A stretch of 64,000 nt of DNA from Halarcobacter mediterraneus (GTDB lineage: Bacteria > Campylobacterota > Campylobacteria > Campylobacterales > Arcobacteraceae), in the NCBI RefSeq assembly GCF_004116625.1, contig NZ_NXIE01000003.1, forward strand, positions 62,001-126,000, written 5' to 3'. A program made the position numbers and the translations under genes. Below, in pieces: positions 49,898 through 60,573 of the stretch (positions are counted from its first letter, which is position 1; every line of letters starts with the position of its first letter). The notes beneath the pieces are model-generated. The model made no database searches. It saw only the letters and a program-made list of their open reading frames with translations, and had not been told where the DNA came from.

Positions 49898-49974
<77 letters not shown>

Positions 49975-49986
49975 CTAATCGATAAA

Positions 49987-50061
49987 TGGATGGGATAGCA
50001 GGATTCGAACCTGCGAATGCTGGTACCAAAAACCAGTGCCTTACCGCTTGGCGATACCCCA
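49987..50061 (-). tRNA. tRNA-Gln (TTG)
   Basis: A 75-base cloverleaf on the minus strand with anticodon loop TTTTGGT (anticodon TTG), T-loop GGTTCGAATCC and an encoded CCA. The discriminator base is T. It lies 12 bases upstream of tRNA-fMet, so the two are probably one transcript. Confidence 0.94.
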
Positions 50062-50236: not shown

Positions 50237-52081
50237 ATGCATATAAAATTATTAATATTAGTTCTTTTACTTTTTAATCCTTTATTCTCAAAAACATTAC
50301 CTATTTATTCAGAAATAGAAAAAATAGATCTTTTAAGATTTTCACAAATATATATTGATTCTACCCAAAATCTTTCAATATTAGATATTAAAAAAGAGAA
50401 CATAAACTTTAGAAATAATGATAAAAAAATGGTAGGATTTGGGTATTCACCTGCTTTTAATGTATGGATAAAATTCACACTAAAAAATGAAACTGAAAAA
50501 AAAATTTTAAAAATATTAGAATATGATAACCCATTAACCACTCACATAGAGTTTTATTCGCCTGACAATAATTATAGAAAGATACAAAAAGGTTTATTTT
50601 TTAAAGATAAAAATACTAATACAATTAATTCAACATTTCAAATAGTACTAGAACCATTTAGCAAGAAGACCTATTATATAAAAGCTAAATCAGAAATAAC
50701 TCCACTAATAGTAAAAATTAATTTATGGGAGAATTCAAACTTTTTAAGTAAAGAATTAAAACATCAAGCTATTTTATGTCTATTTTTTGGAGCAATGCTA
50801 ATATTAGCCATATACAATTTATTTATATATTTTTTTACAAAAGATGTAAGTTACTTATATTATGTTCTTTATATTATTGGAATAATTATTCATCACTCTT
50901 TATATGTAGGATTAGCTACAACTTACATTTTAGAAAGTTATCTAATAAAAAATGTATTTATTTTTGCTTCTGTAATTGTTGCTATTCCTATTTTAGCTTT
51001 AGCTTTTTTTACAAAAGAATTCTTACATACAAAACAATACCCAAAAAATAATAGATTTTTAAATATTTATATTCTAATACTTATTTTATCTATAATCTTT
51101 TTCTTACTTACTAATTCATATGATAAATATAGAAATATATTAACTATGCTTTTACTTGTATATTTAATGTCCCTTACAATATATGCTGCATTAAAAAAGA
51201 ATACACAAGCTTACTTTATTCTTTTTGGTTGGTCTATTTTCTTACTATCTGGCTTAGCAATGTTCCTATCAAGTGCTGGAGTATTTAATATTTATCAATA
51301 TTTTCCATATTTTGTTGAAACTTCTTTTGTTTTAGAGGCTATAATTTTTTCAATTGCTTTAGCTAATAAAATTAATAAGTTACAAAAACAAAAAAATGAA
51401 GCAAATCAAAGATTATTAAAACATCAAGAAAGTGAAACAAAAAGATTAAGTAAAGAAGTAAACAAAAGAACAAAAGATTTAAAAGAAACATTAGTAGAAA
51501 AAGAGCTTCTGTTAAAAGAGCTTAATCATAGAGTAAAAAACAATATGCAAACTATAGTTTCACTAATACGTCTTCAAAATGATGAAGTAAAAAATGAGAA
51601 GTTAAATGATATTTTACTTACTATTCAAAATAGAATTAATGCAATGAGTCACTTACATGAACTCTTATATAAACAAGATAATATCTCACATATAAATACT
51701 TATGCGTATTTTGAAGTTTTAATTGAAGAAGTGAAAGAAAGTTATAAAAAAGATGTAGATATAAAAATAGATATAAAAACAAACCTAAGAATGGAACAAG
51801 CTATTTATTGTGGTTTAATATTAAATGAACTATTAACAAACTCTTTTAAATATGCATTTCCTAATCTTATAGGAAAGATATCTATTACTCTTACAAAGAA
51901 AAACAATTTAATTACTCTTATAGTAAAAGATAATGGAATAGGATATAACAAAGAAAAAGTTCATGATTCTTTAGGGCTTACACTTGTTGATACCTTAGCA
52001 AGAAAACAGCTAAAAGGAAATATTTTCATAGATACTACAAAAGGGGTATTTTCTAAAATAATTTGGGAGGATAAAGAATAG
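50237..52081 (+). CDS. 7TMR-DISM sensor histidine kinase
   Basis: The protein has 614 residues: a signal peptide (about 1-19), a periplasmic DISM extracellular domain (about 25-170), seven membrane segments (about 180-380), a coiled linker, and a HisKA_2-type kinase with His431 in KELNHRVKNNMQTI. The ATPase domain has LILNELLTNSFKYAF and DNGIGY. DISM domains usually bind small extracellular ligands, often sugars. It is the first gene of a run with a LuxI-fold protein and a response regulator; 63 bases holding a TGTGACATA box separate it from the next gene. Confidence 0.9.
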   Translation: MHIKLLILVLLLFNPLFSKTLPIYSEIEKIDLLRFSQIYIDSTQNLSILDIKKENINFRNNDKKMVGFGYSPAFNVWIKFTLKNETEKKILKILEYDNPLTTHIEFYSPDNNYRKIQKGLFFKDKNTNTINSTFQIVLEPFSKKTYYIKAKSEITPLIVKINLWENSNFLSKELKHQAILCLFFGAMLILAIYNLFIYFFTKDVSYLYYVLYIIGIIIHHSLYVGLATTYILESYLIKNVFIFASVIVAIPILALAFFTKEFLHTKQYPKNNRFLNIYILILILSIIFFLLTNSYDKYRNILTMLLLVYLMSLTIYAALKKNTQAYFILFGWSIFLLSGLAMFLSSAGVFNIYQYFPYFVETSFVLEAIIFSIALANKINKLQKQKNEANQRLLKHQESETKRLSKEVNKRTKDLKETLVEKELLLKELNHRVKNNMQTIVSLIRLQNDEVKNEKLNDILLTIQNRINAMSHLHELLYKQDNISHINTYAYFEVLIEEVKESYKKDVDIKIDIKTNLRMEQAIYCGLILNELLTNSFKYAFPNLIGKISITLTKKNNLITLIVKDNGIGYNKEKVHDSLGLTLVDTLARKQLKGNIFIDTTKGVFSKIIWEDKE

Positions 52082-52090
52082 AAATTATTT

Positions 52091-52111
52091 TGTAACACTA
52101 CATGTGACATA
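52091..52111. promoter_or_regulatory. TGTGACATA operator upstream of the LuxI-fold gene
   Basis: TGTGACATA at 52103-52111 is preceded 12 bases earlier by a weaker copy, TGTAACACT (52091-52099, 6/9 matches). It sits in the -35 position of a possible TATATA -10 (52117-52122). The same box occurs twice before the response regulator gene. Confidence 0.5.
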
Positions 52112-52144
52112 GAACATATATAGTTTGTCTAAAAAAGGACAAAC

Positions 52145-52909
52145 ATGAGTTACTTAAATAAAAACATTTCAATAAACTATTTACAAGATTTTGTAAATCA
52201 AACTATTTCAAAATCAAATTATCTTCCTGAACAATTTAATGAACAACAAAAAGAAGCCTTAGAAATATTTAAAAAAAGAATTTTTCTTGAGGAAATTATT
52301 GAAGAGACCATAAACTTTAATAAGAAACTCAAATGGGAAGATAAATACTCTAATATAAATTTAATTAAAAATACAGAAGAATTAATTGAGGTTTTTAAAT
52401 TAAGAAGTGATGTTTATCATGAAATTTCTTATGATAAAGAGTGTCCTGATAAAATAAAAGGCTTAAACTTTGACCTTTTTGATAAAAGCTCAGCAATAAT
52501 ATATTGTACAACAAACAATCAAATTTCAGGAACAATCAGATTTATATTTGATTCAAATAACAAACTTCCAACAGAAGAAAAAGTAAATTTTGACGAATTT
52601 AGAAACACTTATAAAAAAATAGGAGAAATCTCAAGGAATATTGTAAAAACAAGAAATCAAGGATTAAATCAAGAGTTTAAATATCTAATGAATGGTATCT
52701 ATAATGTTTTTATCAATAATGATGTAGATATTGCTTTATCAGGTATAAGAAAAGACCATTTAAAACTATTTCAAAAGCTTGGAGGAGTAAATGTTGAAAA
52801 AGAATTATCAGCATATGGTAATGTTAATATTCCTTTTTTAATAATCTCATATAATCCAAGACTTGCATCAAAATTTTTTAAAAAGGTTTTTTTGAAAGAA
52901 AATATGTGA
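52145..52909 (+). CDS. LuxI-fold N-acyltransferase-like protein (possible signal synthase)
   Basis: This 254-residue soluble protein is GNAT-like. Key positions match the autoinducer-synthase family by type and spacing: Arg87 with Tyr91 (R-x3-aromatic), Asp110 and Asp113 (D-x2-D), Arg132, and Glu161-x2-Arg164 in GEISRNIVK. In EsaI, as I recall, these are R24, F28, D45, D48, R68, E97 and R100. The tryptophan near position 34 of LuxI is not evident, and there is an extra N-terminal region of about 75 residues. It could make an acyl-homoserine lactone, another N-acyl amino acid (FeeM-like), or modify something else. AAAGGA precedes the ATG. It lies between a sensor kinase and a response regulator. 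Confidence 0.6.
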   Translation: MSYLNKNISINYLQDFVNQTISKSNYLPEQFNEQQKEALEIFKKRIFLEEIIEETINFNKKLKWEDKYSNINLIKNTEELIEVFKLRSDVYHEISYDKECPDKIKGLNFDLFDKSSAIIYCTTNNQISGTIRFIFDSNNKLPTEEKVNFDEFRNTYKKIGEISRNIVKTRNQGLNQEFKYLMNGIYNVFINNDVDIALSGIRKDHLKLFQKLGGVNVEKELSAYGNVNIPFLIISYNPRLASKFFKKVFLKENM

Positions 52910-52924
52910 CATACCTGTGACATA
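52905..52924. promoter_or_regulatory. Tandem TGTGACATA operator and promoter before the response regulator
   Basis: Two perfect TGTGACATA copies (52905-52913 and 52916-52924) are 11 bases apart, one helical turn, as in PhoB/OmpR-type tandem sites. An extended -10, TGTTATCAT (52929-52937), begins 5 bases after the second copy. The first copy overlaps the preceding gene's stop codon. Confidence 0.6.
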
Positions 52925-52960
52925 AAAATGTTATCATTTTAAAAATAATTAAGATTGAAT

Positions 52961-53650
52961 ATGAGTAAAAATAAAATATTAATAGTAGAAGATGAAACAA
53001 TAGTAGCTTTAGAAATTCAAAAAGCATTAGAAAGTTTTGATTATGAAGTAACAGATATTGCTACAGATTATGAAAGTGCACTAGAAAGTGTAAAAAAGAA
53101 TTCTCCAAATTTAATTTTAATGGATATAAATTTAGGAGGAGATAAAGATGGTATAGATATAGCTAAAGAGATTCAAAATAGTTACACTATACCAATAATC
53201 TTTACAACAGCATATTCCGATGAGGAAACAATAAATCGTGCAATTAGAACCAACCCTATTAGCTATTTGATAAAACCATTTAAAAGAGAAGAATTAAAAT
53301 CAAATATTTTATTAGGACTATACAAATCAAAAAATAGTGATAAAACAAAAATAGATAAGAAACTTTTAAATTTGGGATATCAATATTTTTATGATGAAGA
53401 ACTAGATAAATTATACTACAAAGAATTATATATAAAACTTGGATTAAAAGAAAGAAAACTTTTAAGAATTCTTATTGAAGAAAAAGGGAAAATTGTATCT
53501 TTTGAAAAGATTGAATATAAGATTTGGAATACACATATTGTTTCAAGTAGTACATTAAGAACCCTTATTTATAGATTAAGGTCAAAACTGCACTACGATT
53601 TAATTGAAACAATCCCAAATGTAGGTTGTAGAATTTATATAAAAGGTTAA
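52961..53650 (+). CDS. OmpR/PhoB-type response regulator
   Basis: The protein has 229 residues: a receiver with Glu10/Asp11, phospho-accepting Asp55 in LILMDIN and Lys105 in LIKPF, then a winged-helix domain (about 135-229) with the recognition helix SSSTLRTLIYRLRSKL. I start it at ATG 52961; a TTG two codons earlier is less likely. It is the natural partner of the kinase at 50237-52081. The tandem boxes before it suggest that it binds its own promoter and that of the LuxI-fold gene. It converges with the next gene with a 4-base overlap. Confidence 0.9.
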   Translation: MSKNKILIVEDETIVALEIQKALESFDYEVTDIATDYESALESVKKNSPNLILMDINLGGDKDGIDIAKEIQNSYTIPIIFTTAYSDEETINRAIRTNPISYLIKPFKREELKSNILLGLYKSKNSDKTKIDKKLLNLGYQYFYDEELDKLYYKELYIKLGLKERKLLRILIEEKGKIVSFEKIEYKIWNTHIVSSSTLRTLIYRLRSKLHYDLIETIPNVGCRIYIKG

Positions 53651-54927
53651 AATAAACTTCGTTTATGATGTTGTTTTTTTAACTCTTCAATTTCTTCTTG
53701 AAAATTAGTAACTAAATCTCTTAAATCATTTATTCTTTTTTTATTTTCAAGATCTTTTTTAATAAAAGAATCTAACTCTTCAGTTTTTTCTGCCAACATT
53801 ACTTCCATATCCTTAATATGTTTTTCATGTTTTCTATTAACACTTTTTAAAGCATTTAAAGCTTCATACATTTGCTCAAATTGCTTTGTTTTATCTTGTC
53901 TAGTCATTAAATTTAGTTTATCAAATTCTAAATTGTTACGTTCATAGGCTTCTAATTGGCTTAATAATTGTTTTCTTTTCATTTCTATTTGTTGTGCTCG
54001 AGAATCAAGAGATTTAATAGTGTTTGAAGACTCTTGTAGTCTTTGAAACAATTCTTCTTTTTCTTTAGATAAAGTTCCAATTTTCTTTTTATATTCTGTT
54101 ATTTGTTCTAAAAATCTTTTAAAGTTTTCTCTTTTTTTTAGTTCCTCTTCAGTCACAAGAAATCTTATAGCTATATATTGTTCTATTTTTTTATTTGAAC
54201 TATCAAAAATAGGTATTATTTTTGTATTTACAAAAAAAGTAGAGCCATCTTTTGCTAAATTCTTAAAAGTACCACTCCACACTTTACCACTTTGAATAGT
54301 TTCCCATAGATTTTTGAAAAAATCTTTTGAAACCTCTGGATGTCTTATTACTTTATGTGATTTTCCAATTAGTTCATCTTCTGTAAAACCTGTAATCTCA
54401 CAAAAGCCATCATTTACATAAGTTATTTTACCACTTAAATCTGTTTTTGAAACTATTGCTTCTTGATTTAAGATATCTAAATAGGTTTGAAGTTCTTTTT
54501 TCTGTACTTCATAATTTTTTTGATAGAAAATATCTGTGCAAATCCTATCAAGTTTTCCATTTATTATATTCAAATCAATTGGTTTTAAAATATAACTATC
54601 TATATGCAAAGAAATTGCTTTTAACATTTGTTCAGTCTCTGTTCTTGCCGTAATAAGCATTGTTGGAACTTTACTATCAATTTCTTTTATTTTTTCAAGC
54701 ATTTCTAAGCCATCCATTTTAGGCATATTAATATCACTGATAATCAAGTCAAATTTTTCATTCTTATTAAATGCATCTTGAAAAGCAAAAAAACCATCCA
54801 AACCATTTGCACATAACTGAACATCAGTAAATCTTCTTTTTAAAAACTTACCTAACTTTTCCCTAGCTAACTCTTCATCTTCGACATATAAGACTTTTAA
54901 ATTTTTTATATTAATTGTACTTTCCAT
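53647..54927 (-). CDS. Receiver-PAS protein with a long coiled-coil tail
   Basis: The protein has 426 residues: a receiver (about 8-125; Glu16/Asp17, Asp65 in LIISDINMP, Lys in ILKPI), an Aer-type PAS (about 150-265; IRHPEVSKDFFKNLWETI), then roughly 150 residues of charged heptad-like coiled coil. There is no enzymatic or DNA-binding output, so it probably acts through protein contacts. AAGGAT precedes the ATG. It overlaps the kinase gene upstream by one base (TAATG), making that kinase its likely partner. Confidence 0.85.
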   Translation of the reverse strand: MESTINIKNLKVLYVEDEELAREKLGKFLKRRFTDVQLCANGLDGFFAFQDAFNKNEKFDLIISDINMPKMDGLEMLEKIKEIDSKVPTMLITARTETEQMLKAISLHIDSYILKPIDLNIINGKLDRICTDIFYQKNYEVQKKELQTYLDILNQEAIVSKTDLSGKITYVNDGFCEITGFTEDELIGKSHKVIRHPEVSKDFFKNLWETIQSGKVWSGTFKNLAKDGSTFFVNTKIIPIFDSSNKKIEQYIAIRFLVTEEELKKRENFKRFLEQITEYKKKIGTLSKEKEELFQRLQESSNTIKSLDSRAQQIEMKRKQLLSQLEAYERNNLEFDKLNLMTRQDKTKQFEQMYEALNALKSVNRKHEKHIKDMEVMLAEKTEELDSFIKKDLENKKRINDLRDLVTNFQEEIEELKKQHHKRSLF

Positions 54928-56834
54928 TAGATATCCTTCAATCCATCTTTAATTAATGTTTTTTCATAAGTTTTGATAGCTTTTTCTTTAATATCATTTT
55001 CTAAGTTATTTTCATAAATAACAATAAGTTCTCCTTTGAACTCATCAACTAAAAACTCTTTTTCTTCTTCATTTAGTTTTGAAATATCAATTAAAATCTT
55101 ACTTTCTTTATCTTTAAACTTTTTAAACTCTTCAAAACTTGATACCTGCTTTACTAAATATTTTTTATTTAATTGTATTATTAAATTAAAAAATAAAATA
55201 GGGTCATTATTTAAAATATAAATCTCTTTTTTTTCTTCATCTAATATTTCTATTTGATTTTCCATTAATACTTCTTCTATATCTTCTTTTTTATCTTTTG
55301 AATCTGCTTTTAATTCTAAAGTATCAAGTCCTTTTAGAAGTTCTTTATTTTTAGAGATAGTAACAATAAATCTAGAACCTACATTTTCTTCACTTGTTAC
55401 AGAGATATCTCCTTTTAATAACTTACTTAAATCTTTACATATAGCTAACCCTAATCCTGTTCCACCATATTTTCTAGTTGTGCTACCATCTACTTGTTTA
55501 AACCTATCAAAAATATGAGATAATTTCTCTTTTGCAATACCAATTCCTTGGTCTTCAATTATCATTTTTATATTTTCATCATCATTTCTTATAATAAATT
55601 TGATTTTCCCTTTTTCTGTAAACTTTAAAGAGTTACTCAATAAATTTTTTGCTATTTGTTTAATTCTATCCTTGTCACTAAAAATATAGCCTATAGACTC
55701 ATCAACCTCATATATAAAATCAAGATTCTTTTCATTCATTTGTTCGATGAACATATCATAAATACTATCTCCTATATCTTTAATATCTACTCTATCATTA
55801 TTTAAAATAATTTCCCCAGCTTCTAGTTTTGATAAATCTAAAACATCATTTATTAAAAATAACAAGTCTTTTCCACATTTATTAATTATTTCAAAATTTT
55901 TAATTTCTTTTTCATCAAAAACACCTCTTCTATTTTTCATCATTACATTACTGATTACATTAATTGAGTTTAAAGGTGTTTTCAATTCATGACTCATATT
56001 TGCCATAAAGTCATCTTTTGCTTTGTTTGCATCTTGCAACTCTTTTTTCTGTTGTTCTAATTTATTTTTTTGTATTTCTCTAATCATTGTTAACTGTTGC
56101 ATATTAATATATGCTTCATTAATCCTTTTTGACATTTTATTAAATGTACCTGCAAGCTTATGAAGTTCATTCTTTTCTATTTCTTTAAGATCAATCTCTA
56201 TTGTTTCATGCTCAACAACATCAAACTTTTTAGTTGCAGCAATAATTGTATTTAAGGGTCTAATTAAATGTTTTGAAGAGAAAATAAAAAATAATACACC
56301 TAATAAAATCATACTTGCTATGATATTTAGTAAAATTAGAAAAATTGATTCTTCTAAATTAATATATACTTCATTTAAATCTATAAACAGAAAGATATAG
56401 TAGTTTTGTTCTTTTAATTTAAACTCTATTGTATGGGTTAATAAATTATTTGAATAGGCATAGGTTAAACCTTCTAAACGGATAATTGGCTCAAGATTCT
56501 TTATATCTTCACTAACTACTCCATCTAAAAAAATAAAACTCCTTTTTTCATTTATAATTGATATCCCTGTAATGTCTGTAGTAGATTCAATTGCATTAGC
56601 AAGATTTATTAAAGCATTAATATTTCTTTGCTTTACATTCTCTATTAATATATTTTTATATACATTTTCTATCTTTTGAAATATTTTTGTTATTTGTTTT
56701 TTTTCATTTCTATATTCTGTAAAAATTTGAAAAGATACAAATAAAAACATAAAAACAAAATATGTTAAATAAACTTTTTTAAATAATATATAACCTATAC
56801 TATTTTTGAATTTTTCAATTAAACTTATCATCAT
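54927..56834 (-). CDS. Membrane histidine kinase with a degenerate receiver-like tail
   Basis: The protein has 635 residues: membrane segments at about 21-39 and 164-186, a small periplasmic domain between, HAMP (187-240), HisKA with His282 in NMSHELKTPLNS, an ATPase domain with EDQGIGIA and KYGGTGLGLAI, and a C-terminal domain (about 525-635). That last domain looks like a receiver, but its first-strand acidic pair is changed (YILNNDP). The kinase core and tail closely resemble those of the kinase at 58046-59473, so the two are paralogues. Its ribosome binding site is far upstream with a hairpin in between (see the hairpin entry). Confidence 0.88.
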   Translation of the reverse strand: MMISLIEKFKNSIGYILFKKVYLTYFVFMFLFVSFQIFTEYRNEKKQITKIFQKIENVYKNILIENVKQRNINALINLANAIESTTDITGISIINEKRSFIFLDGVVSEDIKNLEPIIRLEGLTYAYSNNLLTHTIEFKLKEQNYYIFLFIDLNEVYINLEESIFLILLNIIASMILLGVLFFIFSSKHLIRPLNTIIAATKKFDVVEHETIEIDLKEIEKNELHKLAGTFNKMSKRINEAYINMQQLTMIREIQKNKLEQQKKELQDANKAKDDFMANMSHELKTPLNSINVISNVMMKNRRGVFDEKEIKNFEIINKCGKDLLFLINDVLDLSKLEAGEIILNNDRVDIKDIGDSIYDMFIEQMNEKNLDFIYEVDESIGYIFSDKDRIKQIAKNLLSNSLKFTEKGKIKFIIRNDDENIKMIIEDQGIGIAKEKLSHIFDRFKQVDGSTTRKYGGTGLGLAICKDLSKLLKGDISVTSEENVGSRFIVTISKNKELLKGLDTLELKADSKDKKEDIEEVLMENQIEILDEEKKEIYILNNDPILFFNLIIQLNKKYLVKQVSSFEEFKKFKDKESKILIDISKLNEEEKEFLVDEFKGELIVIYENNLENDIKEKAIKTYEKTLIKDGLKDI

Positions 56835-56840
56835 ATATAA

Positions 56841-56868
56841 TAGAATAAATTAATTATTCTACCCTCCT
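56841..56868 (-). promoter_or_regulatory. Shine-Dalgarno plus intervening hairpin before the kinase start
   Basis: On the minus strand AGGAGGG (56868-56862) is followed by an 8-base stem TAGAATAA/TTATTCTA with loop TTAAT, then TTATAT and ATG 56834. Unfolded, the ribosome site is 27 bases away; with the hairpin formed, it is 6. In-frame stop codons rule out a start nearer the site. Confidence 0.5.
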
Positions 56869-56950
56869 AAATGAAATTATAGTAACAAATAATACTATAA
56901 AAGTATTAATAAATAAAATTTTTTGATATTTTTACAATACTATATGTTAT

Positions 56951-56956
56951 TATAAT
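56951..56956 (+). promoter_or_regulatory. Probable FIST operon -10 element
   Basis: TATAAT lies 25 bases before the FIST gene ATG in an A/T-rich stretch. No clear -35 box. Confidence 0.45.
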
Positions 56957-56981
56957 TAAATATAAAAAAAAGAGTTTTATT

Positions 56982-58052
56982 ATGAAGAAAGTACAATATT
57001 TTGAAAATATGATTCATTTATTAAATTCAAAACTTGAATTTAGTAATAAATACCTTATTCTAGTAGCTGAAAACACAATATTTGATTTAGAACAATTAAA
57101 TAGTTTAAATATTGAATTTGTAGGGGCTATTGTCCCTGAAATAATATTTGATAACAAACATCTAAAAGAAGGTTTAGTTATTTATACCCTAAACCTAAAT
57201 AGTCAAATGAATTTAATTGAAGATATGAATAATATTGATTATTTAAAAAAAGAAAACTTTCATAAACACTCTTCTTTTATAATAATAGTTGATGGTCTAA
57301 GTAGTTATATTACAAAGTTTCTTGAGTCAACTTTTCAAGTTTTACCTTTAAACAGTAAAATTGTAGGAGGAGGAGCAGGGAAATCTACCTTAAAACAAGA
57401 GCCTATAATCTTTTCAAACTCTGGTATTTATCAAGATTCAGCCTTAGTTATATCAATGAATTTAAAACTTAATATTGCAGTAGAAAATGGTTGGCAATAT
57501 TTAGAGGGACCTTTTTTAGTTTCTTCCTGTGATAAAAACTGCCTTAAATCTTTAAATTTCTCAAAAGCTTTTAAAGCATATAAAGAAGTTATAGAAAAAG
57601 ATTGTAAAATAAAAATCACTAAAGATAATTTTCTTGATGTTTGTAAATCTTATCCCCTAGGAATTATTAAATTTGATGAAGAAATAATAGTAAGAGATCC
57701 TATATTTCTAGATGAAGATGAAAATATAATTTTAATTGGTGATATAGAACAAAACTCTACAATAAATATTTTAAAAGGAAATAAAGAGTATCTCTTAAAT
57801 GCTTCAAAAAATATTGTTAATAAAGCTTGTAAAAATATACAAAAAGATGATATTCAGGCTATTGCAATTTTTGATTGCATTTCAAGATCAACTTATTTAG
57901 GAAAAGATTTTGTTGAAGAACTTAACCATATAAAAAAACAAAGTAATGACAAACTCATTTTTGGAGCATTAAGTCTTGGGGAAATTGCAAATAATGGTAA
58001 TGAATATATAAATCTTTATAATAAAACTTGTGTAGTAGGTGTATTATGTTAG
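56982..58052 (+). CDS. FIST-domain sensor protein (NosP-like candidate)
   Basis: This 356-residue cytosolic protein has FIST_N (about 25-180, with IVGGGAGKSTL near 127) and FIST_C (about 200-345, with AIAIFDCISRSTYLG and LIFGALSLGEIANN). FIST proteins are ligand-sensing partners of signalling proteins. The NosP subgroup binds haem, senses nitric oxide and is encoded next to a histidine kinase, as is the case here (7-base overlap with the kinase gene). I cannot identify a haem ligand, so NO sensing is inference from gene order. The ribosome binding site is weak. Confidence 0.8.
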   Translation: MKKVQYFENMIHLLNSKLEFSNKYLILVAENTIFDLEQLNSLNIEFVGAIVPEIIFDNKHLKEGLVIYTLNLNSQMNLIEDMNNIDYLKKENFHKHSSFIIIVDGLSSYITKFLESTFQVLPLNSKIVGGGAGKSTLKQEPIIFSNSGIYQDSALVISMNLKLNIAVENGWQYLEGPFLVSSCDKNCLKSLNFSKAFKAYKEVIEKDCKIKITKDNFLDVCKSYPLGIIKFDEEIIVRDPIFLDEDENIILIGDIEQNSTINILKGNKEYLLNASKNIVNKACKNIQKDDIQAIAIFDCISRSTYLGKDFVEELNHIKKQSNDKLIFGALSLGEIANNGNEYINLYNKTCVVGVLC

Positions 58053-59473
58053 TTCAAAATTTAGCGATTGCTTTTAAATGTTATAGTGCTATTGGTAATT
58101 CATTTGATTTAAAAAAAATGATGTATGAAGTTTTAAAAGTTTTTGTTTCAGAAAGCTATTGTACGTATGGCTCTTATTGTATTAAGAATAAAGAATTTAG
58201 TTATTTTGGTAAAATTGATAAATTCTGTGCTGAGGATTATGATGAATATAAAAAAGAAATTAATTTTATTGAAGAAGAAGAAAAAGTAGTTATTATCATA
58301 AGACTAGAATATGGTTCAATTTTTCTTATTTCTAAAAATCTCGAAACTGATTATGGCTTTTTTATTTCAATGTTTGAAAGCTTAATAAAAAAATTAAATA
58401 TTAGTATAGATTCATGTATGAATGTACAAAAACTAAAAGAATTAAATCAGGCAAAAGATGATTTTCTAGCGAACATAAGTCATGAATTAAAAACTCCTCT
58501 AAACTCTATAAATTTGATTTCATCTGTTATGAAAAAGAATAAAGATAATTCTCTAAATGAAAGAAATCTAAAAAATATTGAAATCATAAATAGTAGTGGG
58601 AACTATTTATTAAATCTTATAAATGATATTTTAGATATATCTCGGTTAGAATCAGGAAGAACTACAGTTCACTATGAAAAAGTAAACCTAAAAGAGTCTT
58701 TAGAAGAAATTCAAAATATTTTTTTACCTCAATTAGAAGAAAAAGGTATAGATTTTATCTTTAACTTTGATGAAAATATCAAAGAAATTTACAGCGATAA
58801 TAATAAAATAAAACAAATAGTTAAAAACCTTCTAAGTAATGCAATAAAATTTGTAAATAAAGGCTATATAAAACTTAGCGTAAAAGATGAAGATAGCAAT
58901 ATAATGATTAGTGTAGAAGATAATGGTGTAGGAATTGCACAAGAAAAATTAGAACATATTTTTGATAGATTTAAACAAGCAGATAGTACTACTACAAGAA
59001 AATATGGCGGAACAGGCTTAGGATTATCAATATCTAAAGAATTATTAAAACTTTTGAATGGTTCAATATTTGTAAAAAGTAAGGAAAACATTGGTTCAAC
59101 TTTTTATGTAACTATTCCAAAAAATCTTAATGAATTAAAACATTTAGATGAACTTGATGTAATGAGAAACTATAAAAAAGAAGAAGTTCAAGAATCAAAA
59201 AAAGATATCTTAGTTTTCAACTCCAATGCCATAACTTTTTTTTCTTATGTTATGCATTTAAACAAGTTTTTTAATGTAAAGCAAATTAATCAATTAGATC
59301 AACTAAATGATATAGATATAGAAAATTTTGAAAAAATTATTGTTGATAAAAGTAGTATCGACCATACAATTTTTAATACTTTAAATGATAACTTCAATAA
59401 AAAATTATTTTTGATTGACAGAGACAAAAGTATTACAGAAACTATAAATGAATTAAAAAAGGATATATTATGA
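58046..59473 (+). CDS. Soluble histidine kinase coupled to the FIST protein
   Basis: This protein of about 475 residues has no membrane segment. About 125 N-terminal residues are unassigned (cysteine-containing, GAF-like in size). HisKA follows with His146 in NISHELKTPLNS, then an ATPase domain with EDNGVGIA and KYGGTGLGLSI, and a short receiver-like tail (about 390-475) with a changed acidic pair (LVFNSNA). I start it at ATG 58046 with AGG upstream; it overlaps the FIST gene. Kinase core and tail resemble the divergent kinase at 54927-56834. Confidence 0.88.
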   Translation: MLVQNLAIAFKCYSAIGNSFDLKKMMYEVLKVFVSESYCTYGSYCIKNKEFSYFGKIDKFCAEDYDEYKKEINFIEEEEKVVIIIRLEYGSIFLISKNLETDYGFFISMFESLIKKLNISIDSCMNVQKLKELNQAKDDFLANISHELKTPLNSINLISSVMKKNKDNSLNERNLKNIEIINSSGNYLLNLINDILDISRLESGRTTVHYEKVNLKESLEEIQNIFLPQLEEKGIDFIFNFDENIKEIYSDNNKIKQIVKNLLSNAIKFVNKGYIKLSVKDEDSNIMISVEDNGVGIAQEKLEHIFDRFKQADSTTTRKYGGTGLGLSISKELLKLLNGSIFVKSKENIGSTFYVTIPKNLNELKHLDELDVMRNYKKEEVQESKKDILVFNSNAITFFSYVMHLNKFFNVKQINQLDQLNDIDIENFEKIIVDKSSIDHTIFNTLNDNFNKKLFLIDRDKSITETINELKKDIL

Positions 59474-60573
59474 AAGATAAATTTTCAGTATTAATTATAG
59501 ATGATGTTCAAGAAAATATCTATTCTCTTGAACTTTTAATAGAAGAATTTAATGTGAATATATATTCTGCTTTAAATGCAAATGATGCAGTAAGTATCTT
59601 AATGAAGAATCCTGTTGACTTAATACTATGTGATATACAAATGCCTGATGTAGATGGTTTTCAATTTGCTGAATATATTAAAGGTATTGATAAATTAAAA
59701 GATATACCAATCATTTTTATTACAGGAATTTATGATAAAGATTCATATCAAAAAAAAGGTTATGATTTAGGTGCAATAGAATATATTTCAAAACCAATTG
59801 ATGATGTATTATTAACTTCTAAACTAAAGGCATATATTGAACTATTTAATAAAAATAAAGAAATAAGAAGTTCTCTTGACCAAGCAAATAAATTAGTTGT
59901 ACATAATACAAAAATGGCCAGTATTGGAGAAATGATAGGAGTTATATCACATCAATTAAAACAACCATTAAACGTTTTATCACTATATTGTGATGATATA
60001 AAGTTTTCATATGAACATGGTGAAATTGATGATGAAATAATAGAAGATTTTTCAGAAAATACAAAGAAACAGATACACTATATGAGAGATACTATTGATG
60101 GTTTTTTAAGTTTTTTTAATCCAGATAAAGATAAACACTCATTTGAAATAAAAAAAGTTATAGAAGCTACCTATGAATTATTAAAATCACAAATTGGCAA
60201 AAATAATGTTGATTTTGAGATGCAAATAGAATCTAATTTCTCCTTAAAAGGAGTAGAAATGGAGTTGTCTCAAGTACTTATAAATCTTATTACAAACTCT
60301 ATTCAAGCTTTTAATGAAAGAGAAATAGAAAATAGAAAGATTGAACTAATTACTTATAGTAAAGACAACAAAAATTATTTGATTATTACAGATAATGCGG
60401 GAGGAATAGAAGAAAATAATCTTGAAAAAATATTTGACCCTTACTATACAACAAAAGCAGAAGGAACAGGAATTGGCTTGTACATGGTAAAAATTGTTAT
60501 AAAAAATAGCTTTAATGGTAATTTAAAACTAGAAAACTCTAAAGAGGGTGTTAAATTTGTAATACAATTTTAA
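59470..60573 (+). CDS. Receiver-histidine kinase hybrid
   Basis: The protein has 367 residues: an N-terminal receiver (Asp11/Asp12, Asp55 in LILCDIQMPD, Lys in ISKPI), then a kinase with His161 in VISHQLKQPLN, N-box NLITNSIQAF and ATPase motifs DNAGGIE and GTGIGLYM. It starts 4 bases inside the previous gene (ATGA). An N-terminal receiver followed by a kinase suggests a relay: the FIST-associated kinase phosphorylates this protein, which in turn signals to another regulator. Confidence 0.88.
   Translation: MKDKFSVLIIDDVQENIYSLELLIEEFNVNIYSALNANDAVSILMKNPVDLILCDIQMPDVDGFQFAEYIKGIDKLKDIPIIFITGIYDKDSYQKKGYDLGAIEYISKPIDDVLLTSKLKAYIELFNKNKEIRSSLDQANKLVVHNTKMASIGEMIGVISHQLKQPLNVLSLYCDDIKFSYEHGEIDDEIIEDFSENTKKQIHYMRDTIDGFLSFFNPDKDKHSFEIKKVIEATYELLKSQIGKNNVDFEMQIESNFSLKGVEMELSQVLINLITNSIQAFNEREIENRKIELITYSKDNKNYLIITDNAGGIEENNLEKIFDPYYTTKAEGTGIGLYMVKIVIKNSFNGNLKLENSKEGVKFVIQF

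Follow-up and report, generated by a model that had tools for sequence, protein, structure and literature searches.

What is an acyltransferase gene doing directly between the genes for a sensor histidine kinase and a response regulator? This arrangement is found at positions 50237 to 53650 of the window, by which we mean the whole stretch of 64,000 nucleotides of Halarcobacter mediterraneus analysed here, and an earlier note had proposed that a LuxI-fold enzyme encoded at this locus makes an acyl-type signal which is read through the two-component system. The features of the locus are as follows:

50237..52081, + strand: 7TMR-DISM sensor histidine kinase (DISMED2, seven transmembrane helices, HisKA_2, HATPase; Pfam, His431), proposed receptor
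52091..52108, + strand: box 1, direct repeat TGTAAC-ACTACA-TGTGAC, proposed regulator site, 36 bp before the enzyme start; position kept in relatives
52123..52144, + strand: predicted leader hairpin GTTTGTCTAAAAAAGGACAAAC over the ribosome-binding site of the enzyme gene (z -3.0); kept in relatives, absent before other genes
52145..52909, + strand: FeeM/LuxI-type acyltransferase of 254 aa (PF21926 66.2 bits, fold matches, conserved residues), proposed signal synthase
52905..52921, + strand: box 2, direct repeat TGTGAC-ATACC-TGTGAC, across the enzyme stop codon; relatives have it in this position too, ahead of RR2
52955..53650, + strand: OmpR-type response regulator of the RR2 clade (Pfam REC and Trans_reg_C, regulator tree, Asp57/Lys107)

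All three open reading frames are intact in the ORF list of the window, with the ATG at 52961 as the likely true start of the regulator. From the comparisons below we consider it probable that they form a self-inducing, quorum-sensing-like acyl-signal two-component module. Two tRNA genes (Met and Gln, 49898-50061) lie just upstream on the opposite strand, a common type of insertion site, and by-eye reading of the ORFs downstream (53647-60573) found more signalling genes, of receiver and sensor-kinase types, along with a 356-aa protein.

A FeeM-family enzyme by profile, with LuxI-like active-site charges

The window protein matches the FeeM profile PF21926 over positions 1-156 of 158 (cut-off 27 bits), and all of the 41 relatives searched match it as well, in every case far above the LuxI profile PF00765. 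With the latter the window protein gave no match in the profile search; four of the 41 relatives matched it at E 0.01, and among those examined only L032 (29.2 bits) exceeded the cut-off of 24. The related profile Acetyltransf_5 was scored slightly below its cut-off, and the similarity to the PEP-CTERM/exosortase-associated acyltransferase (TIGR03694) is weak, at 24 bits far below the curated cut-off of 112; a by-eye reading of the surrounding ORFs showed no exosortase gene. As a lone query against PDB sequences the window protein had no match, and a profile and relatives were required: the profile built from 41 relatives placed FeeM on top (E 9e-4), while the top match of L032 was LasI, a weak one (E 0.013) in which the R, D, D, R, E and R positions line up. 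For the AlphaFold model (mean pLDDT 87.5) FeeM is again the best predicted fold match (2g0b, Z 18.5, rmsd 3.3, 177 residues), followed by RpaI, BjaI, MesI and LasI (Z 16.5-17.5); a single plain GNAT reaches Z 16.1 and other GNATs 14.5 or less. The LuxI fold of the earlier note is therefore right in so far as AHL synthases are close in fold, but the best match is FeeM and PF00765 is unmatched, so that the FeeM-like enzyme which it had named as an alternative fits better than LuxI. It had also named an unrelated GNAT family as the finding that would speak against it, and instead the enzyme falls in the FeeM/LuxI branch.

The pattern of LuxI charged residues which had been read from the 254-residue protein is borne out by its relatives. 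The residues are R87-x3-Y91, Y96, D110-x2-D113, R132 and E161-x2-R164, and among 52 relatives R87, Y96, D110, D113 and E161 are conserved in 100%, R132 in 98% and R164 in 96%; the six charged LuxI positions (R, D, D, R, E, R) are aligned with LasI through L032. The alignment with FeeM pairs R132 and R164 of this family with Ser and Gln, and a published active-site table gives Glu94 and Gln97 for FeeM (PMC9654057). Since the FeeM profile match is accompanied by LuxI-like R132 and R164, the enzyme reads, by its sequence, as a member of the FeeM family with active-site charges that resemble LuxI. Residues 1-66 lie outside the matched domain, as a helical extension that is also conserved. Plasmid-borne copies of the enzyme are annotated only as "hypothetical protein".

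These charges raise the question of whether this is a true AHL system, a sub-case of an acyl-signal module with a known signal class, in which S-adenosylmethionine would be used, an acyl-homoserine lactone made, and the product sensed by the kinase in the way that LuxN senses that of LuxM. The conserved LuxI positions, with arginines where FeeM has Ser and Gln, the score of L032 above the PF00765 cut-off and the nearness of AHL synthases in fold all point this way, but they are set against a FeeM profile far above PF00765 in all relatives and a window protein lacking a PF00765 match, and we regard this sub-case as unlikely. The absence of a LuxR partner, stated earlier for the surroundings of the gene, extends to the whole H. 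mediterraneus genome, where no LuxR-type receptor (PF03472) was found with a positive E. coli control; PF00765 was likewise absent from this genome in a search that was positive in 13 of 397 genomes of the phylum. In two other loci (L075:5357-6824, L091:5220-7050) a leucine-carboxyl-methyltransferase-like gene is followed by a LuxI/FeeM-type gene that scores above the PF00765 cut-off, and the enzyme of L091 has a cyclic-nucleotide-binding domain fused to it.

Kinase, regulator and their linkage to the enzyme

The flanking 7TMR-DISM kinase and OmpR-type regulator described from the letters are confirmed by their Pfam domains, and the two have the marks of a two-component pair: the kinase matches 7TMR-DISMED2, 7TM, HisKA_2 and HATPase well above cut-off and has the phospho-acceptor His431 in its H-box, and the receiver of the regulator has Asp57 and Lys107 in place, with matching profiles. 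The nearest group of sensors is set apart from other 7TMR-DISM kinases, as complete copies score at least 221 bits and the next at most 155. Few ligands of 7TMR-DISM kinases are known. Carbohydrate-like ligands are usually assumed for DISMED2 domains, which are not a natural pocket for an acyl amide, and this speaks against the kinase as an acyl-signal receptor.

We compared 52 Campylobacterota loci with a close relative of the enzyme (one being a duplicate contig of one assembly). In 50 of these a 7TMR-DISM kinase and an OmpR-type regulator are within three genes of the FeeM-like gene, in the other two the kinase ortholog is on the same contig at a distance of about 15 and 32 kb, and the enzyme was never found in a genome without the kinase. 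In the FeeM-profile search 42 of the 104 family genomes had a member, and with the window protein as query relatives were found in further families of the order.

The usual gene order is kinase-RR1-FeeM(-RR2), where RR1 is adjacent to the kinase and RR2 follows the enzyme. The regulator tree places the window regulator in the RR2 clade and not with RR1, and the gap between kinase and enzyme is 63 bp. The position of the enzyme between kinase and regulator, although correctly seen, is a derived layout, because RR1, which normally follows the kinase, is missing here while RR2 is kept; with RR1 gone, the phosphorelay of this strain may differ from that of its relatives. With regard to the gene order among relatives, the association is conserved, whereas the exact kinase-enzyme-regulator order is found in this strain only. 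Other layouts have the enzyme convergent to regulator and kinase, the enzyme divergent from the kinase, or the order RR-enzyme-kinase, which gives at least five layouts. The flanks are mostly unrelated between groups, and thus the gene set itself is the conserved unit.

This gene set travels in Arcobacter-type bacteria. The H. mediterraneus genome has a second copy, and copies are also carried on Aliarcobacter plasmids of 100-160 kb; a plasmid search for relatives of the enzyme found them on Aliarcobacter/Arcobacter plasmids only, and there was no relative on the viral contigs scanned. When the kinase domain is allowed for, enzyme divergence tracks that of the kinase sensor (partial rho 0.36) and not that of the regulator (0.04), a mirror-tree correlation between sequences of shared ancestry, which is suggestive only.

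Such tight linkage to the kinase, together with the conserved helical N-terminal extension outside the catalytic domain, could also be expected if the enzyme were to modify or bind the kinase or another protein, with no diffusible product. We consider this very improbable, as the enzyme has the active-site pattern of small-molecule acyl amide synthases, and the two loci with the enzyme gene 15-32 kb from the kinase gene, with a box nearby, also speak against it.

Direct-repeat boxes track the kinase

The upstream regions of the synthase and RR2 share a direct repeat with the consensus TGTGAC-N6-TGTGAC (at times N5), which follows the kinase across genomes. Most box-bearing loci have ~38 bp between the end of the box and the enzyme start and ~41 bp to RR2; in the window box 2 ends about 39 bp ahead of the probable regulator ATG. 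Of the 52 loci, 31 had the loose pattern upstream of the enzyme, compared to 0.01 expected from mononucleotide shuffles. Among the 104 family genomes the strict box was found in 40 of 46 with the kinase and in 7 of 58 without it (Fisher p 3e-15, kinship ignored), with 186 and 17 sites, respectively, and a reversed control pattern had no sites in these 104 genomes. H. mediterraneus is one of the six kinase genomes lacking a strict box because its boxes are variants, and the relaxed pattern has only eight matches in its genome, boxes 1 and 2 included. Frequently there is a TATAAT-like element shortly downstream of the box. Binding sites of OmpR/PhoB-type activators are located over the -35 region, and box and TATAAT-like element together show that geometry. 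We infer that the module regulator binds the box, and the shared boxes suggest that the gene set may switch itself on.

A predicted hairpin in the enzyme leader

Enzyme leaders are predicted to fold more stably than other leaders from the same loci, with a mean z of -3.4 and 75% below -2 (n=44), versus a z of about 0 for the controls (31 kinase, 67 regulator and 150 other leaders). The core of the ribosome-binding site is predicted to be paired in 35 of 40 distinct enzyme leaders, and stem positions carry several pair types, a count made on predicted pairs and hence supportive rather than independent. No Rfam family matches the leader hairpin. From the predicted structure, the hairpin may gate translation of the synthase. 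A precedent for such gating is the lasI RNA thermometer of Pseudomonas aeruginosa (cited in PMC6786874), which likewise is a structured leader on a signal-synthase gene, although unrelated in sequence to the hairpin predicted here.

Genes behind the boxes and loci without the enzyme

Behind the boxes are many genes for small lipoproteins and membrane proteins. Both in the H. mediterraneus genome (L141, G000:C1:728150) and in L053 near 10320 a box precedes an SbcD-like nuclease gene, and in L089 the box is located between divergent SbcD-like and FeeM-like genes. Defence-type genes behind boxes include SIR2, TIR, AbiZ-like and IetA-like genes, and a dGTPase gene is a frequent neighbour of the loci. 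Genome G035 (L178-L199) has 24 strict boxes, several of them before SIR2, TIR, AbiZ-like and Tle1-like phospholipase genes, and these may represent a possible conflict-gene regulon. A box regulon for anti-phage defence was rejected, since PADLOC also matched control genes of the same loci (e.g. GajB), and with these controls an enrichment of defence genes behind boxes was not shown.

Several genomes contain kinase-regulator pairs without a neighbouring synthase (L112-L118, L120), and five of these genomes (G006, G008, G013, G014, G031) had no match in the FeeM-profile search either. L112 has its upstream flank in common with L053, without the enzyme and RR2, and several of the enzyme-less loci have a box before repeated lipoprotein genes. 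Pairs with boxes but no enzyme are as expected for listeners. In another family of the order (L093, L096, L097, L100) a more distant gene of the FeeM/Acetyltransf_5 type comes first in a conserved set of other composition, with genes for a protein that has a TonB plug domain, an exported protein of 180 aa and a HAMP-GGDEF-EAL protein; this may be a second arrangement for signal sensing.

A probable signal circuit and its strongest rival

Since a synthase, a kinase, a regulator, shared boxes and a throttled synthase are found together, the data fit a positive-feedback signal circuit. In this circuit the FeeM-like enzyme would acylate a small amine, with acyl-ACP or acyl-CoA as the probable donor, and the product would be released as a diffusible amphiphilic signal. 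The 7TMR-DISM kinase would sense this signal at the membrane and phosphorylate the OmpR-type regulator or regulators, which would bind the box over the -35 region of the synthase and RR2 promoters, with positive feedback and a presumably density-dependent response as the outcome, and would also act on the boxes of scattered accessory genes. The hairpin over the ribosome-binding site would hold synthase translation low until needed. The signalling module proposed earlier is supported by the linkage, the shared boxes and the co-occurrence of box and kinase.

The same data also fit a kinase-regulated lipid synthase. The kinase would then sense an envelope or environmental cue and switch on one-step synthesis of an N-acyl amino acid or aminolipid, a surfactant or membrane lipid that is the output of the circuit and not its input. 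Membership of the FeeM family, the near-match to Acetyltransf_5 and boxes which would place the enzyme under regulator control are all compatible with this strongest rival, which we nevertheless consider rather unlikely, as the flanks of the loci have no other biosynthetic gene in common, the kinase always accompanies the enzyme in the genomes of the 52 loci, the box also precedes RR2 and unrelated, scattered accessory genes, and receiver-only loci exist.

Comparison with known systems

The acyl-signal circuit has counterparts to each of its parts. FeeM, an N-acyl amino acid synthase (PF21926, PDB 2G0B), is alike in profile family, best fold match and the position of the catalytic-site Glu, but it lacks the two arginines and the extra helical N-terminus, and is encoded in a biosynthetic cluster rather than beside a sensor kinase and regulator. 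LuxI-type AHL synthases (LasI, EsaI, BjaI, RpaI) share the fold, the charged active-site positions and aromatics at two further positions, and differ in the PF00765 match and LuxR-type partner that are missing here. That a membrane kinase can sense an acyl signal is already known: in LuxM/LuxN and AinS/AinR of Vibrio the gene for an acyl-type signal synthase is also next to that for a multi-pass membrane histidine kinase. LuxM belongs to an unrelated synthase family and LuxN, a hybrid kinase, has a different sensor, whereas here a 7TMR-DISM kinase with HisKA_2 has a dedicated OmpR-type regulator. A limited search of the open-access literature found no description of a synthase of this family together with this type of kinase, the box and the hairpin, and no paper on an acyl-type signalling system in Arcobacter or the Campylobacterota.

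It is quite possible, though slightly less likely than not, that the module represents a new class of quorum sensing and the first acyl-signal system of the Campylobacterota, with a FeeM-type synthase, a new N-acyl signal, a 7TMR-DISM receptor, double gating by box and hairpin, and receiver-only eavesdroppers. The box promoter is a ready reporter, which makes the question directly testable. If true, this would be an undescribed system of bacterial communication, in which 7TMR-DISM kinases would gain a ligand class and FeeM-type enzymes would extend from natural products to signalling.
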